DNA from: Clostridia bacterium
Lineage (GTDB): Bacteria; Bacillota; Clostridia; Oscillospirales; RGIG8002
Length of the DNA: 34,499 nucleotides
Reading direction: 5' to 3'
NCBI GenBank assembly: GCA_017453725.1
Contig: JAFTEJ010000138.1
Location: 1 to 34,499 of the forward strand
This document shows positions 9,604-33,292 of the stretch, piece after piece. The position numbers and the translations under genes were made by a program. The notes under the pieces were generated by a model. The model had not been told where the DNA came from, ran no database searches, and was given only the letters and a program-made list of their open reading frames with translations. Numbering within the stretch: the stretch's first letter is position 1; every line of letters starts with the position of its first letter.

Positions 9604-12483
9604 TTATAGCGCGGTCACGCGGACTCGCGCATCCTCCCTTCCGTTCCTGCGCCTTCTGCGGCGCGAAAGCAGCGCGTCGGCGGCGAGGTAGACGATGAAG
9701 ACTCCGGCGGCGGCCGCCGAGACCTTCGCGCCCGTGACGACGCCGGGGCTGACGTACTTAAACTCCACGGTGTGCTCCCCTTCGCCGACGAGCACCGCCA
9801 TAAAGCTGACGTTCACGCGCTCTATCTCGGCTTCGACTCCGTCGACGTAGGCCGTCCAGCCCGCGTCGTATGGGATCGAATAGAATACGTAGTTCTCGCG
9901 CTCCATATCTATCACGGAGGTGAAGCTGTTTTTGCCGAACTCCCAGCTCTTCGACGCCGTGGCGCGGCGCTTTTCCGCGTTGGCGGCGTGCGAAAGCTCG
10001 CTGTACTGGAGCGTATAGAAGGGCGCGGTGTTCATAAAGCGGGAGAAATAGTCGATGCGGTCGTCGTCCACGACCATCGCGGCGAGCATTATATGCGATT
10101 TCGACTCGTTGTTCAGCGCGTCGTAATCGGAGCGCGGGATCGCGTTGTCGTAGCAGAAGCCCATAGGGATGAACTGGTTGTTTTCCCACACGTCGAAGGC
10201 GCCGATCTCGCCGACGTAGGTCAGCCAGCCGCGGTCCTCGAAAAGGCTGCGCTGCTTATCGTCGTCCAGCAGGTAACGGACGGAAAGCAGCGAGCGCAGC
10301 GCCCCGTGTTCTATCGGCACGGCGGTCGCGACGTCGCGTTTTATTCCGAGCGAGTCGTAAAAATCGATCGTGGACGTCGGCACGACGCTGTGGAAGCTCG
10401 AAAGTCCGGGTGTGTGCATGAATATAGACAGATTGCGCACGCCGTCGTAGTTCTCGAGGCGGGAGTTTTCCATCCCCTCGAGCTTGATGTTTTCATATGA
10501 GTAAAGGTAGTTTTTCTCGTAAAAATCGGGGCTGAACGCCTTTGAGTAGCCCATCTGTTCGTAGAAGGTCCACGCCAGGAACGCGAACAGGCAGGTAAGC
10601 GCCAGCACCGCTATGCCGTAGCGCTTCTTCGATGACCACCTGACGATGAAGCCCTGCCCCTTGCCCCCGCGCCTGAAGAAGCGGCGCCTGCCGGAAGCTT
10701 CCGAATCGGCGCTGTCATCCCGAGGAGGCGCAGCCTCCGAGGTACCCCCCTCGATTTGCAGGGCGTCGGTCTTGCCTCCCTCTGAGGACGGAGGCGGCGT
10801 CTGAGGCGAAGCCGAAGATGACGGAGGGAGAGATAACGACGGCTCTCCTTCTGTCAAAGCGTCGTTCCGGAGACGGAGGTCAAGCGAAGCCGCGGGGATT
10901 TTCCCTCCCTCAGTCTCGGACGGCAAGCCGTCCTCGACAGCTCCCTCGTCTGAGGGAGCTCCGCCTTCGGCGGCAAGCGCGGCGGCGTTCTTACCTTCCG
11001 CCTCCGCTTTCTCCGTCTTTTTCGCGCCTATCTCAAAGGCGGCGGAGGTGCCCGCGGCGTCCGAGTCGAGGTCGCGGAAATACATCGGGCGCATTACGCG
11101 CGTGACCAGAATCACCATCGCTATGCAGAGCGCGAGGAAGAAAACGTAAAGCCAGAAGCGGTCTGGATACTGCTCCAGCCCCTTGAACACGTCGCCTATG
11201 CCGTCGACCTTTTCGAGATTCGCCGGGTTGATGAGCACCCAGACGACGCCGGAAAGTCCGACCGGGAGCGCGAGCGCCGCGGAGGCGATTATCGTTCCCT
11301 TGATTCCCGCCTTCCAATTTGTATCGCGGCGGTCGAGCGCGATCGCGGTCGCCATCGCCATGAACAGTATCGCCATATACCACCAGCGGGTATAGTAATT
11401 CGACTTAAAGAGCAGGAACACCGCGTTGAACAGCGGCACGAACGAACACACGCAGCAGAGCACGAGCAGCATCGAAAGCCAGTCGCGCTTCTTCTCTTTT
11501 TTCGTGCGCAGGTACGCCCACACGCCCGTCACCGAGAAGAGCGGCAGTCGCGCGGAGGTGGATGTCCAGTTCGGTATCCAGGAGTCGCTCCCGCGGTGGA
11601 AGAAGTTGAGGTCGCCGGGGATCTCCGGCGGGAATATCATTCCGCGCGCGATCTCGAAATACCGCTTTGTCGCGGAGAAGAACCACATATAGTAGCTGTT
11701 GCTGAACGCCTCGTTCGCGCGCGGGAAGTCCGCCAGCGCCACGAGCGTCGGCACGAGTATCACCGCCGCCGCCGCGACTCCGAGCACCGACTCGAGCGCG
11801 ACGCGGCCGAAGTTTTTGAGCGAGAATTTCAGATCCTTCCCGATCAGGCGCAGGATATAGTAGATTATCACGAAGGCCGCCACGCCGGGCAGGAAGAAGT
11901 AGCTGTAAAGCGCGGTCAGGAAGACCGTTATCCCGAACCACCCGCGCTTCCCCTCCTCCACGCAGGCGTCGAAGGCGAGGATGACGAAGGGGAAGATCGC
12001 CACGACGTCGTGGAAGTGGTTGAAGACGAGGTTGAACATCTGGAAGCCGGAAAAGGCGTAGAGTATGCCGCCGGTATAGGCGAAATACTTGTTGCTAACC
12101 CGCTTGCGGATGACGAAGAACGCGCCCATAGCCGCGAGGCCTATCTTCAGGCAGTAGAGCGGCGCGATGAGGTATACCGTCCATGTGTGCGGGAACAGCA
12201 GCGTTATCAGGAAGAACGGGCTGCCGAGCAGGTAGAACGAATACGACGAAACGGTATTGACGCCCATATCCGTGTTCCAGTTCCAGAAGAATTCGCCGCT
12301 GTGTATCGCGCGGTTTATCTCGCTGTAAAAGGGTATCTGCTGGAGCTGGAAATCGCCGAAAAAGAGCTGGTAGCCGCCCGTCATTATCATCACGGGCAGA
12401 AAGACCGACAGCGCCAGTCCCGCGGCAAGCAGGAAGACGGTCAGTCCGTCGTGTTTTCCGAAAAAGCGTTTTTTCAGCAGCAT
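9604..12483 (-). CDS. YfhO-family GT-C membrane glycosyltransferase with repeat-encoded loop
   Basis: A 959-residue protein with about a dozen membrane segments in its first 480 residues, two more near 490 and 610, an extracellular C-terminal domain, and a last segment near 930. The early loop GDFQLQQIPFYSEINRAI with Asp44, followed by a WNWNTDMGVN segment, is characteristic of YfhO, which in Bacillus glycosylates lipoteichoic acid from an undecaprenyl-phosphate sugar. The start is ATG at 12483 with AAGGAG 6 bases before it; the open frame extends 37 codons further, but only through an intergenic repeat. The striking part is residues about 480-600, a linker rich in Glu, Ala, Gly, Pro and Ser between two membrane segments. 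It is encoded by a composite palindromic repeat that is normally intergenic and also occurs in the gene at 1-384. The linker is expected to be disordered and cytoplasmic. Confidence 0.88.
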   Translation of the reverse strand: MLLKKRFFGKHDGLTVFLLAAGLALSVFLPVMIMTGGYQLFFGDFQLQQIPFYSEINRAIHSGEFFWNWNTDMGVNTVSSYSFYLLGSPFFLITLLFPHTWTVYLIAPLYCLKIGLAAMGAFFVIRKRVSNKYFAYTGGILYAFSGFQMFNLVFNHFHDVVAIFPFVILAFDACVEEGKRGWFGITVFLTALYSYFFLPGVAAFVIIYYILRLIGKDLKFSLKNFGRVALESVLGVAAAAVILVPTLVALADFPRANEAFSNSYYMWFFSATKRYFEIARGMIFPPEIPGDLNFFHRGSDSWIPNWTSTSARLPLFSVTGVWAYLRTKKEKKRDWLSMLLVLCCVCSFVPLFNAVFLLFKSNYYTRWWYMAILFMAMATAIALDRRDTNWKAGIKGTIIASAALALPVGLSGVVWVLINPANLEKVDGIGDVFKGLEQYPDRFWLYVFFLALCIAMVILVTRVMRPMYFRDLDSDAAGTSAAFEIGAKKTEKAEAEGKNAAALAAEGGAPSDEGAVEDGLPSETEGGKIPAASLDLRLRNDALTEGEPSLSLPPSSSASPQTPPPSSEGGKTDALQIEGGTSEAAPPRDDSADSEASGRRRFFRRGGKGQGFIVRWSSKKRYGIAVLALTCLFAFLAWTFYEQMGYSKAFSPDFYEKNYLYSYENIKLEGMENSRLENYDGVRNLSIFMHTPGLSSFHSVVPTSTIDFYDSLGIKRDVATAVPIEHGALRSLLSVRYLLDDDKQRSLFEDRGWLTYVGEIGAFDVWENNQFIPMGFCYDNAIPRSDYDALNNESKSHIMLAAMVVDDDRIDYFSRFMNTAPFYTLQYSELSHAANAEKRRATASKSWEFGKNSFTSVIDMERENYVFYSIPYDAGWTAYVDGVEAEIERVNVSFMAVLVGEGEHTVEFKYVSPGVVTGAKVSAAAAGVFIVYLAADALLSRRRRRRNGREDARVRVTAL
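10713..10975 (-). repeat. Composite B+A palindromic repeat, copy 2 (inside the YfhO-family gene)
   Basis: It holds a B unit (10713-10742, TGTCATCCCGAGGAGGCGCA), the linker CAGGGCGTCGGT, a left A unit (10774-10837) and an inverted right A unit (10899-10971). The order, orientation and reading frame are the same as in the copy at 1-260. It is read on the minus strand without stops, giving SDEGAVEDGLPSETEGG, GEPSLSLPPSSSASPQ and SEAAPPRDDS. Confidence 0.9.
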
Positions 12484-16052: not shown

Positions 16053-16254
16053 TGTCATCCTGAACGCAGCGGACGCCCTTGCCTCCCTCTGGGAGGGAGG
16101 TGGCATCTGAGGCGAAGCCGAGGATGACGGAGGGAGAGATAACAACAGTTTGCCATTTGTAAAAAGCAACTTCCAAACGAGAAACTACGTTATCTCTCCC
16201 TCAGTCTCAAAGGGCTCCGCCCTTCTCGACAGCTCCCTCCCAGAGGGAGCCGAG
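16053..16254. repeat. Family B half-unit followed by a complete family A fold-back element
   Basis: A B unit (TGTCATCCTGAACGCAGCG) is followed by the clearest A element of the window. The left A unit (16081-16143) and right A unit (16189-16254) are inverted copies of one another, with the inner arms GACGGAGGGAGAGATAAC and GTTATCTCTCCCTCAGTC differing at one position. Each unit has its own hairpins (CTCCCTCTGGGAGGGAG; AAGGGCTCCGCCCTT). About 45 unrelated bases lie between the arms. With the C element that follows, it fills the 510-base gap between the phosphohexomutase and DUF975-like genes. Confidence 0.9.
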
Positions 16255-16255
16255 A

Positions 16256-16410
16256 CCGCGCGAAGCGCGGCAATACGTTCAAACCGCGCCCGTTCGGGCG
16301 CGGTTTGTTCCTTAATACCGCCGCAGGCGGTATATCATACGCAAAGCGTATATCATATCGCCAAAGGCGATATATCATTGCGAACGCCTCAGCGTTCGCC
16401 CGGGGAAGGC
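16256..16410 (+). repeat. Family C hairpin mosaic, copy 1
   Basis: Modules in order: hairpin CCGCGCGAAGCGCGG, linker CAATACGTTCAAA, hairpin CCGCGCCCGTTCGGGCGCGG, linker TTTGTTCCTTA, then a chain of small hairpins (ACCGCCGCAGGCGGT, ACGCAAAGCGT, ATCGCCAAAGGCGAT), each followed by an ATATCAT-type spacer, and the end hairpin GCGAACGCCTCAGCGTTCGC followed by CCGGGGAAGGC. It stops about 30 bases before the 3' end of the phosphohexomutase gene. Confidence 0.9.
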
Positions 16411-22440: not shown

Positions 22441-22468
22441 TTTGATAATTCGTCATACGGCAAACGCC

Positions 22469-22643
22469 TGTCATTCCGCGCGTAAGCGAGGAACCCCACG
22501 CCTTAAACATCTGTCATTCCGAGCGTAAGCGAGGAATCCCACACCTTAAACGCCTGTCATTCCGAGCGTAAGCGAGGAACCCCACGCCTTTCGCAGACGG
22601 CCGCATACGGCGGGGGATCCCTCGGCGCCACCTCGGGATGACA
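22469..22643 (+). repeat. Tandem family B repeat (43-base period) closed by an inverted B end
   Basis: Units start with TGTCATTCCG at 22469, 22512 and 22555, exactly 43 bases apart, each with GCGTAAGCGAGGAA and CCTTAAACGCC-type tails. The third unit is followed by a diverged spacer and then CCTCGGGATGACA, the inverted B end, at 22643. The array therefore looks like one B inverted pair whose left half was amplified. Confidence 0.93.
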
Positions 22644-22661: not shown

Positions 22662-22776
22662 TCAATGCGCGGGCGATTAAAATCTCCCCTACGGCGCCGC
22701 GCGGAGCGCGGCCCTGCCTCCCTCCGGGAGGGAGGCGGCATCCGGGGCGAAGCCGGGGATGACGGAGGGAGAGACG
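22662..22776. repeat. Family D unit next to a single family A unit
   Basis: The D unit (22662-22710, minus orientation) contains the linker CGCCGTAGGGG, a GATTTTAATC palindrome and the hairpin CCGCGCTCCGCGCGG; it matches 34310-34342 and, in part, 33251-33292. The A unit that follows (22715-22776) is a lone left half with CCTCCCTCCGGGAGGGAGG and GACGGAGGGAGAGA; the usual inverted right half is absent. Confidence 0.85.
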
Positions 22777-22883
22777 GCGTTCGCCGGAAGCGAACGCTAT
22801 CGTTCAAATCGGCTCCGCCGATTTGTTCCTTACCTATTCACTATTCACTTTTACTTATTCACTGCGAACGCCTTGCGTTCGCC
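22776..22883 (+). repeat. Family C element with AT-rich centre, in the leader of apgM
   Basis: It contains the hairpin CAAATCGGCTCCGCCGATTTG, the linker TTCCTTA, a centre of CTATTCACTATTCAC-type heptamer repeats, and the end hairpin GCGAACGCCTTGCGTTCGC. It is the inverted form of the element at about 33172-33242. The end hairpin finishes two bases before the AAAGGAG ribosome binding site of apgM, so the repeat supplies the leader of that gene. Confidence 0.88.
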
Positions 22884-24104: not shown

Positions 24105-24154
24105 CAGCCGCCGCGAACGCAGCGCGATATGCTCTCTTCGCTCAAATTAAAGAA

Positions 24155-24183
24155 CAAAACGGCTCCCGTCGGGAGCCGTTTTG
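24155..24183. terminator. Intrinsic terminator, probably bidirectional
   Basis: A perfect 13-base-pair hairpin, arms CAAAACGGCTCCC and GGGAGCCGTTTTG around GTC, lies between convergent genes. The stem carries A residues on its left flank and T residues on its right, so it can end apgM on the plus strand and the ABC exporter gene on the minus strand. Confidence 0.88.
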
Positions 24184-24190
24184 AATTATT

Positions 24191-24340
24191 CAAATCGGCA
24201 AAGCCGATTTGCTCCTTAATACCGCCGCAGGCGGTATATCATGCCGGCGGTACGCCGGTATATCATACGCGAAGCGTATATCATATCGCCGTAAGGCGAT
24301 ATATCATTGCGAACGCCCCAGCGTTCGCCCGGGGAAGGCT
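24191..24340 (+). repeat. Family C hairpin mosaic, copy 2
   Basis: Modules: CAAATCGGCAAAGCCGATTTG, the linker CTCCTTA, then four small hairpins (ACCGCCGCAGGCGGT, CCGGCGGTACGCCGG, ACGCGAAGCGT, ATCGCCGTAAGGCGAT), each followed by an ATATCAT-type spacer, then GCGAACGCCCCAGCGTTCGC and CCGGGGAAGGC. It has one hairpin more than the copy at 16256. Like that copy, it ends just before the 3' end of a minus-strand gene. Confidence 0.9.
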
Positions 24341-33130: not shown

Positions 33131-33292
33131 TGTCATCCCGAGGAGGCGCAGCCGACGAGGGACCCCACAGGCGAACGCAGGGCGTTCGCAGTGAAGAGTG
33201 AAGAGTGAAGAGGTAAGGAACAAATCGGCAAAGCCGATTTGAACGTATTGCCGCGCTCCGCGCGGCGCCGTAGGGACGAGCATCGCTCGTCC
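33131..33292 (-). repeat. Family B half-unit, inverted family C element and family D unit
   Basis: B (33131-33170, TGTCATCCCGAGGAGGCGCA) is followed by a C element in the opposite orientation to the other copies: GCGAACGCAGGGCGTTCGC, a centre of GTGAAGAGTGAAGA heptamers, TAAGGAA, CAAATCGGCAAAGCCGATTTG, the linker GAACGTATTG, the hairpin CCGCGCTCCGCGCGG, and a D-type GACGAGCATCGCTCGTC hairpin. With the terminator it accounts for most of the 348-base gap after prmA; nothing was recognised in 33293-33368. Confidence 0.87.

Follow-up and report, generated by a model that had tools for sequence, protein, structure and literature searches.

Intergenic hairpin arrays with modular, exchangeable arms in rumen Clostridia

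Four elements in the window and the plan of the family

The window, a stretch of 34,499 nucleotides (contig JAFTEJ010000138.1 of Clostridia bacterium assembly GCA_017453725.1), carries four copies of a hairpin-rich repeat. We compared the MAG that contains it (G000; 1.64 Mb, fragmented, 75% complete) with its three congeners G001, G002 (98% complete) and G003 (Clostridia bacterium RGIG8183, 97% complete). Genomes were searched with a covariance model of the core, R1, and with a generic covariance model of two stems 7 nt apart, R2; the DNA around the matches and the orthologous sites were cut out as L-numbered stretches, on which the anatomy and all comparisons are based. As the original prediction had placed them, elements were found at 16256, 22776, 24191 and 33172 (inverted), each recovered by R1 with E values from 3.9e-13 to 3.6e-16. 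Their parts are as follows.

16256-16270 (+): element 1, outer hairpin H1, CCGCGC-GAA-GCGCGG
16271-16279 (+): element 1, linker CAATACGTT
16280-16307 (+): element 1, core hairpin CAAA-CCGCGCCC-GTTC-GGGCGCGG-TTTG (R1 match 16272-16314, +, E 3.9e-13)
16308-16314 (+): element 1, TTCCTTA linker, which is spacer 0 of the arm
16315-16379 (+): element 1, three-hairpin arm (loops GCA, AAA, AAA) with ATATCAT spacers, lacking unit 2 of element 3 (R2 match 16310-16356)
16380-16399 (+): element 1, terminal hairpin GCGAACGC-CTCA-GCGTTCGC
22777-22797 (+): element 2, outer hairpin H1, GCGTTCGC-CGGAA-GCGAACGC
22798-22804 (+): element 2, 7-nt linker TATCGTT
22805-22825 (+): element 2, core hairpin CAAATCGGC-TCC-GCCGATTTG (R1 match 22797-22832, +)
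22826-22863 (+): element 2, TTCCTTA, then an arm of bare heptamers (CTATTCA type) with a lag-7 period
22864-22882 (+): element 2, terminal hairpin, immediately 5' of AAAGGAG/ATG; G002 has an empty site at the orthologous position
24155-24183 (-): element 3, left core hairpin CAAAACGGCTCCC-GTC-GGGAGCCGTTTTG, terminator-like, with a degenerate left arm (R1 match 24148-24191, -)
24184-24190 (no strand): element 3, palindromic 7-nt core linker AATTATT
24191-24211 (+): element 3, right core hairpin CAAATCGGC-AAA-GCCGATTTG (R1 match 24183-24218, +)
24212-24218 (+): element 3, CTCCTTA
24219-24308 (+): element 3, four-hairpin arm (loops GCA, GTA, GAA, GTAA) with ATATCAT spacers (folding energy, R2)
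24309-24328 (+): element 3, terminal hairpin GCGAACGC-CCCA-GCGTTCGC
33171-33189 (-): element 4, terminal hairpin
33190-33213 (-): element 4, heptamer arm (CTCTTCA on the - strand)
33214-33220 (-): element 4, TTCCTTA
33221-33241 (-): element 4, core hairpin CAAATCGGC-TTT-GCCGATTTG (R1 match 33214-33249, -, E 3.6e-16)
33242-33265 (-): element 4, linker CAATACGTT and outer hairpin CCGCGC-GGA-GCGCGG

The four elements were expected to share conserved linkers. They do belong to one family, but the linkers are not constant, since CAATACGTT, TATCGTT, AATTATT and TTCCTTA or CTCCTTA all occur. The centers consist, as foreseen, of three or four hairpins with ATATCAT-like spacers (elements 1 and 3) or of heptamers (elements 2 and 4); this difference is real, but the two kinds are not unrelated, the ATATCAT and CTATTCA centers both being arrays of 7-nt spacers, with or without hairpins. 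Heptamer arms gave an autocorrelation of 0.56 at lag 7 versus 0.24-0.30 at other lags. The arm of element 3, which has a second, outward-facing core on its left side, had a folding energy as single-stranded DNA of -39.2 kcal/mol versus -19.7 +/- 2.7 for shuffled sequences (z -7.3). Other abundant intergenic repeats (TGTCATCC/TTCCGAGG..., CTCCCTC...GAGGGAG and GTAGGGGCGATC...GATCGCCC) form composite blocks with these elements, at 10713-10748, 16065-16139, 22462-22590 (a 43-bp unit in three tandem copies), 22700-22774 and 33131-33166 of the window.

The sequence TTTGTTCCTTA occurred 10 times in the MAG and 0 times in the reversed control, and all 10 occurrences were elements with a CAAA-stem-TTTG core hairpin. 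Genome-wide, R1 gave at least 82 matches in the MAG and at least 33-79 in each of the three congeners, counts that are lower bounds and include palindromic cores read on both strands; the family thus has tens of copies in each of the four genomes. The common plan starts with a core hairpin (CAAA-stem-TTTG), which leads via TTCCTTA into an outward arm, and ends with a terminal hairpin; the arm has about four short hairpins with array-specific 7-nt spacers between them or, in the alternative state, bare heptamers. The complete form in the congeners is mirror-symmetric about a central AATTATT: on its left stand, from the outside inward, a terminal hairpin, four hairpins, TAAGGAA and a core hairpin, and on its right follow a core hairpin, TTCCTTA, four hairpins and a terminal hairpin. 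Among 108 parsed arms, the spacer types were ATATCAT, ATATCAC, ATTTCAC, ATTTACC, ATTTAGC, AAATCAT and CTTCATT, and in each type one 7-mer was kept along the whole arm. Hybrid arms with both hairpins and bare heptamers were found in L085 and L087 of G001 and, at locus 1, in the left arms of both G000 and G001; together with the shared 7-nt period, they indicate that hairpin and heptamer centers are two states of one heptamer frame. Note that slippage in replication was considered as the origin of bare heptamers and rejected, as a hairpin and one 7-mer would be lost together.

Outside the genus, 36 other genomes of the order had only weak R1 matches. At E<=1e-3, R2 matched at least 53 of 147 genomes of the order, at least 42 of them at <=1e-5, while in a phylum-wide sample of 249 genomes, which differs from the order sample in sampling and in the candidates scored, R2 at <=1e-5 matched its own genome and none of the other ~248. 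R2 abundance among the genera of the order sample (G005-G146) ranged from 0 to more than 20 matches. Other genera of the order show the same 4+4 layout with different cores. In several of these, the core contains the outermost spacer and half-stem in inverted copy, over 10-12 bp, the two varying in step (TTATATTCGCC with GGCGAATATAA in L184/L185, TTTTATTCGCC with GGCGAATAAAA in L187, TTCTATTCGCC with GGCGAATAGAA in L183/L190, and TGAATTGCCTTA with TAAGGCAATTCA in L205). In L184-L205 the long-range stem of 10-12 bp cannot form together with the local hairpin, which would allow a switch or a closed multibranch fold. The family was absent from phage records; in viral contigs, the core pattern had 0 matches and the ATATCAT array pattern occurred in 1 short contig.

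Insertion sites and ends of the elements

Terminal hairpins vary by locus: GCGAACGC ends are common in G000, and some ends are host sequence. We judged inverted copies of gene ends by comparing the gene ends between orthologs. In L091 of G001 the end reads TGTTTTGTATGTGAC-TTAA-GTCACATACAAAACA, and its distal half encodes VFCM-stop. This gene end is conserved also in G000 and in G002. The proximal half is confined to G001: here the gene end leads, through a 4-base turn, into GTCACATACAAAACA, which repeats its final 15 bases perfectly in inverted orientation, and then comes the arm. Inverted copies of gene ends also occur in L118 of G003 (11 bp, with the stop codon in the loop) and in L167/L136 (with the stop TAG inside the stem), and a similar copy lies in L101. 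Such copies are the product expected of fold-back synthesis, which is likely to have given rise to these ends.

Comparison of orthologous sites revealed presence and absence of whole elements. The site of element 2 is empty in G002, that of element 4 in both G001 and G002, and the G002 site corresponding to the G001 element at ~9735 of L085 is empty as well. No target-site duplication was seen at any of the empty or replaced sites compared, most of which are composite; a 7-bp target duplication as the source of the spacers was rejected because none was seen at the empty sites.

These polymorphic sites, the many scattered intergenic copies and the symmetric ends are what would be expected if the elements were non-autonomous transposons of the MITE or REPIN type, moved by a host transposase, with the internal variation acquired later. 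We regard this, the strongest of the alternatives, as possible though doubtful, because no target-site duplication was seen at the clean empty sites and the terminal hairpins are locus-specific and perhaps host-derived. Terminal inverted repeats common to all copies, which would mark a MITE, were not found, nor was a repeat-flanked cognate RAYT/Y1 transposase in the genome, which would mark a REP or REPIN system. A linked TnpA-REP (Y1) transposase had been suggested for these repeats, but the Y1_Tnp domain (PF01797) gave 0 matches in G000, G002 and G003, and the link was rejected. G001 has one full copy and one fragment, and stretches L127 and L128 contained neither an R1 nor an R2 element. 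As the elements encode no protein and the search turned up no dedicated transposase, they are most likely passive or non-autonomous.

Gut-1 and the nature of the hairpins

Part of the family has been catalogued before as RNA. Gut-1 (RF01706) was described from human gut metagenomes and rated by its discoverers as 'certainly RNA' (Weinberg et al. 2010, PMC2864571); between its three hairpins stands the 7-mer GUGAAAU, which is the ATTTCAC spacer read as reverse complement. With the Rfam model, matches above the gathering cut-off of 50 bits were obtained on contigs C79 (69.9 bits), C98 (61.0), C12 (57.3) and C100 (51.4) of G000 and in L085 (58.5), L184 (55.4) and L091 (54.6). The arm of element 3 stayed just below the cut-off, with 49.1 bits on the - strand (24231-24309), and the arm of element 1 reached 42.4 bits, also on the - strand. 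The Rfam model describes a single ncRNA, with one arm, on the inward strand and from the human gut only, whereas here it corresponds to one arm type of a mirror-symmetric repeat that also uses other spacers, has tens of copies per genome, occurs in rumen Clostridia and extends order-wide.

On the outward strand, 121 of 183 triloops were GNA and 10 were TNC; tetraloops were GNNA in 16 of 31 cases and TNNC in 0, and the closing pair was C-G in 206 of 221 loops. The heptamer arms L040 (G018) and L044 (G005), from other genera, were kept outside these hairpin statistics. GNA and GNNA loops on G-C stems form extraordinarily stable DNA mini-hairpins (PMC4686876), and in the promoter hairpins of the N4 virion RNA polymerase a C:G closing pair with a 5'G/3'A loop is needed for supercoil-driven extrusion (PMC4496689). 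The covariation count on set A3 is biased, its sequences having been picked for perfect stems; we used instead 197 distinct unselected units, cut out by their spacers and not by pairing. Their 1140 pairs comprised 1079 Watson-Crick pairs and 61 others, of which 43 were A-G, 6 were A-C (the wobble of the other strand) and 5 were G-T. That wobble pairs are so rare on both strands speaks against constraint on an RNA. Tandem G-A mismatches persist in homologous units, which suggests selection on the structure beyond correction by template switching. Folding energies of DNA versus RNA are not decisive because the parameter sets contain no triloop bonus, and the available parameters do not distinguish GNA from TNC loops, so that the argument for DNA rests on loop statistics and the literature. 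On this basis the arrays are probably structures of the DNA itself.

It is unlikely that the arms are structured ncRNA genes (Gut-1 RNA) or RNA regulatory elements, with the stem changes as RNA covariation. The Gut-1 scores of up to 69.9 bits speak for it, as do two-sided stem changes that keep complementarity, albeit in the set chosen for perfect stems. However, the matches stand as head-to-head mirror pairs around a single core (C98 and C100 of G000, C170 of G187), the pairs are almost free of wobble, the DNA-type GNA loops lie on the strand opposite to the Gut-1 model, some arms follow right behind intrinsic terminators of tRNA genes (L183, L185, L209), and stems and spacers vary freely between orthologous sites. 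More tentatively, Gut-1 might be one arm of a protein-free, order-wide class of DNA elements and not an RNA gene, the arms being assembled on a 7-nt ruler from mini-hairpins of d(cGNAg) type that can be exchanged, lengthened by fold-back copying of flanking host DNA and read by a dedicated enzyme or DNA-binding partner. The class is a variant of the small palindromic intergenic repeats, one part of the class having been filed earlier as RNA.

Exchange of arms and turnover of hairpin units

Modularity and the exchange of arms were directly evident at orthologous loci. At locus 3, the left flank plus core of G001 and G002 are identical at 96.6%, and the stretch that begins with the terminal hairpin and enters the right gene at 95.6%; between these, the right arms, of ATTTCAC and ATTTACC type, have 59.5% identity (95th percentile of shuffles, 53%). 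At locus 1, orthologs agree at 100% in the right arm, 98.8% in the right flank and 89% in the left flank, but at 61% in the left arm. A third species at swapped loci tells which arm is older: at locus 3 the more distant G003 has a G001-type arm at 83%, and at locus 1 a remnant of the left arm of G001 survives in G000 with 92% identity. The locus 1 site of G003 has bare heptamers. Similarly, at the site of L088, between conserved genes, G001 has arms of ATTTAGC type where G002 has an array of ATATC[AG]C type. No donor copies of the replaced arms were identified.

Change at the level of single hairpin units, whose growth was part of the original prediction, was seen too: precisely unit 2 of element 3 is missing from element 1, and stems turn up again in other slots, for example GCGCC in slots 1-4 and GACGGC in slots 2-4 of G003 arms. 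The proposal of cassette exchange in place of point mutation held for the blocks replaced between conserved flanks at loci 1 and 3, but compensated point changes inside slots occur too, for example from ATACCGCC to ATACTGCC. In L070 of G000 (41-410), near-identical tandem copies of ~276 bp occur, one of which has an extra 21-bp (three-heptamer) duplication inside its heptamer arm, a recent heptamer expansion.

The constant 7-nt spacing, the array-specific 7-mers, the roughly four units per arm, the hybrid arms, the GNA turns on the outward strand and the fold-back copies at the ends might all reflect an enzyme that writes hairpins stepwise, each step adding a hairpin and a 7-nt copy. We hold this to be rather improbable: most arms of the same type share their unit order between copies, which indicates that arms mostly spread ready-made, and no candidate enzyme was identified. 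Divergence of one ancestral repeat by point mutation and compensation can practically be dismissed, for it explains the compensated changes inside slots but is contradicted by block replacement between identical flanks and by the differing 7-mers at one site, as at loci 1 and 3.

The reading we favor, with moderate confidence, is that of non-coding, modular DNA hairpin arrays that diversify by recombination and fold-back copying. The core has a single CAAA-stem-TTTG hairpin or a pair of them, and one arm or two leave it outward via TTCCTTA; judging from its loops, the outward strand, when single-stranded or negatively supercoiled, would fold into d(cGNAg)/d(cGNNAg) mini-hairpins. Elements spread as copies. 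Whole arms are replaced between copies with common core and terminal hairpins, as seen directly, the simplest route being homologous recombination or gene conversion, and single units are gained or lost between direct 7-mers, as the pattern shows. Fold-back copying would add neighboring DNA in inverted form, among it the final codons of an adjacent gene, as in the ends described above. A host role, such as insulation between transcription units or protein binding, may be envisaged. On this reading, Gut-1, a catalogued candidate RNA, would become a piece of an abundant DNA repeat, and the arrays would be natural, strand-conserved series of the most stable small DNA hairpins known. The comparisons give direct evidence that hairpin cassettes are swapped and point to backward copying of host DNA as a source of new hairpins, which makes it testable how intergenic palindromic repeats arise.

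Each BOX module has its own fixed sequence, 45-60 bp long, and TIRs and TSDs are present. Small dispersed repeats and heptamer STRRs in cyanobacteria were reportedly described by Elhai et al. in 2008, a study cited in PMC3116915. BOX elements of Streptococcus pneumoniae (boxA-boxB(n)-boxC) are likewise modular, intergenic and hairpin-rich, with central modules varying in number between conserved ends; compared with their description (PMC3049150), the present arrays are set apart by hairpins of 15-25 bp, free stems, fixed 7-nt spacing and no TSD at the sites examined. REP/BIME/REPIN sequences with RAYT (PMC2817692, PMC3116915) share scattered intergenic palindromes, mosaic order and compensated stem changes, but our family has no Y1 transposase in two near-complete carriers, no GTAG/CGTC foot and another architecture. 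Cyanobacterial small repeats, STRRs and TAACTGA heptamers (PMC4679880) resemble it in bare heptamer arrays and very small repeat-associated hairpins, whereas the present family combines the two, hairpins alternating with heptamers within a single regular and symmetric element that has a core. The N4 promoters (PMC4496689) are also small DNA hairpins with 3-nt loops, C:G closing and a 5'G...3'A loop, but they are single phage hairpins, and the link to a polymerase is absent here.

Several minor observations were made at individual sites. TTCCTTA with bare heptamer arms is also present in other families of the order (L044 of G005 and L040 of G018). Arrays of G001, G002 and G003 near 9b-type loci abut TGTTCCACGTGGAACA, whose perfect outward extensions differ by species. 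In L197 (G141, contig C71), at ~1455-1695, the same 16-bp palindrome TGTTTCACGTGAAACA (parS-like) stands on both sides of a hairpin array.
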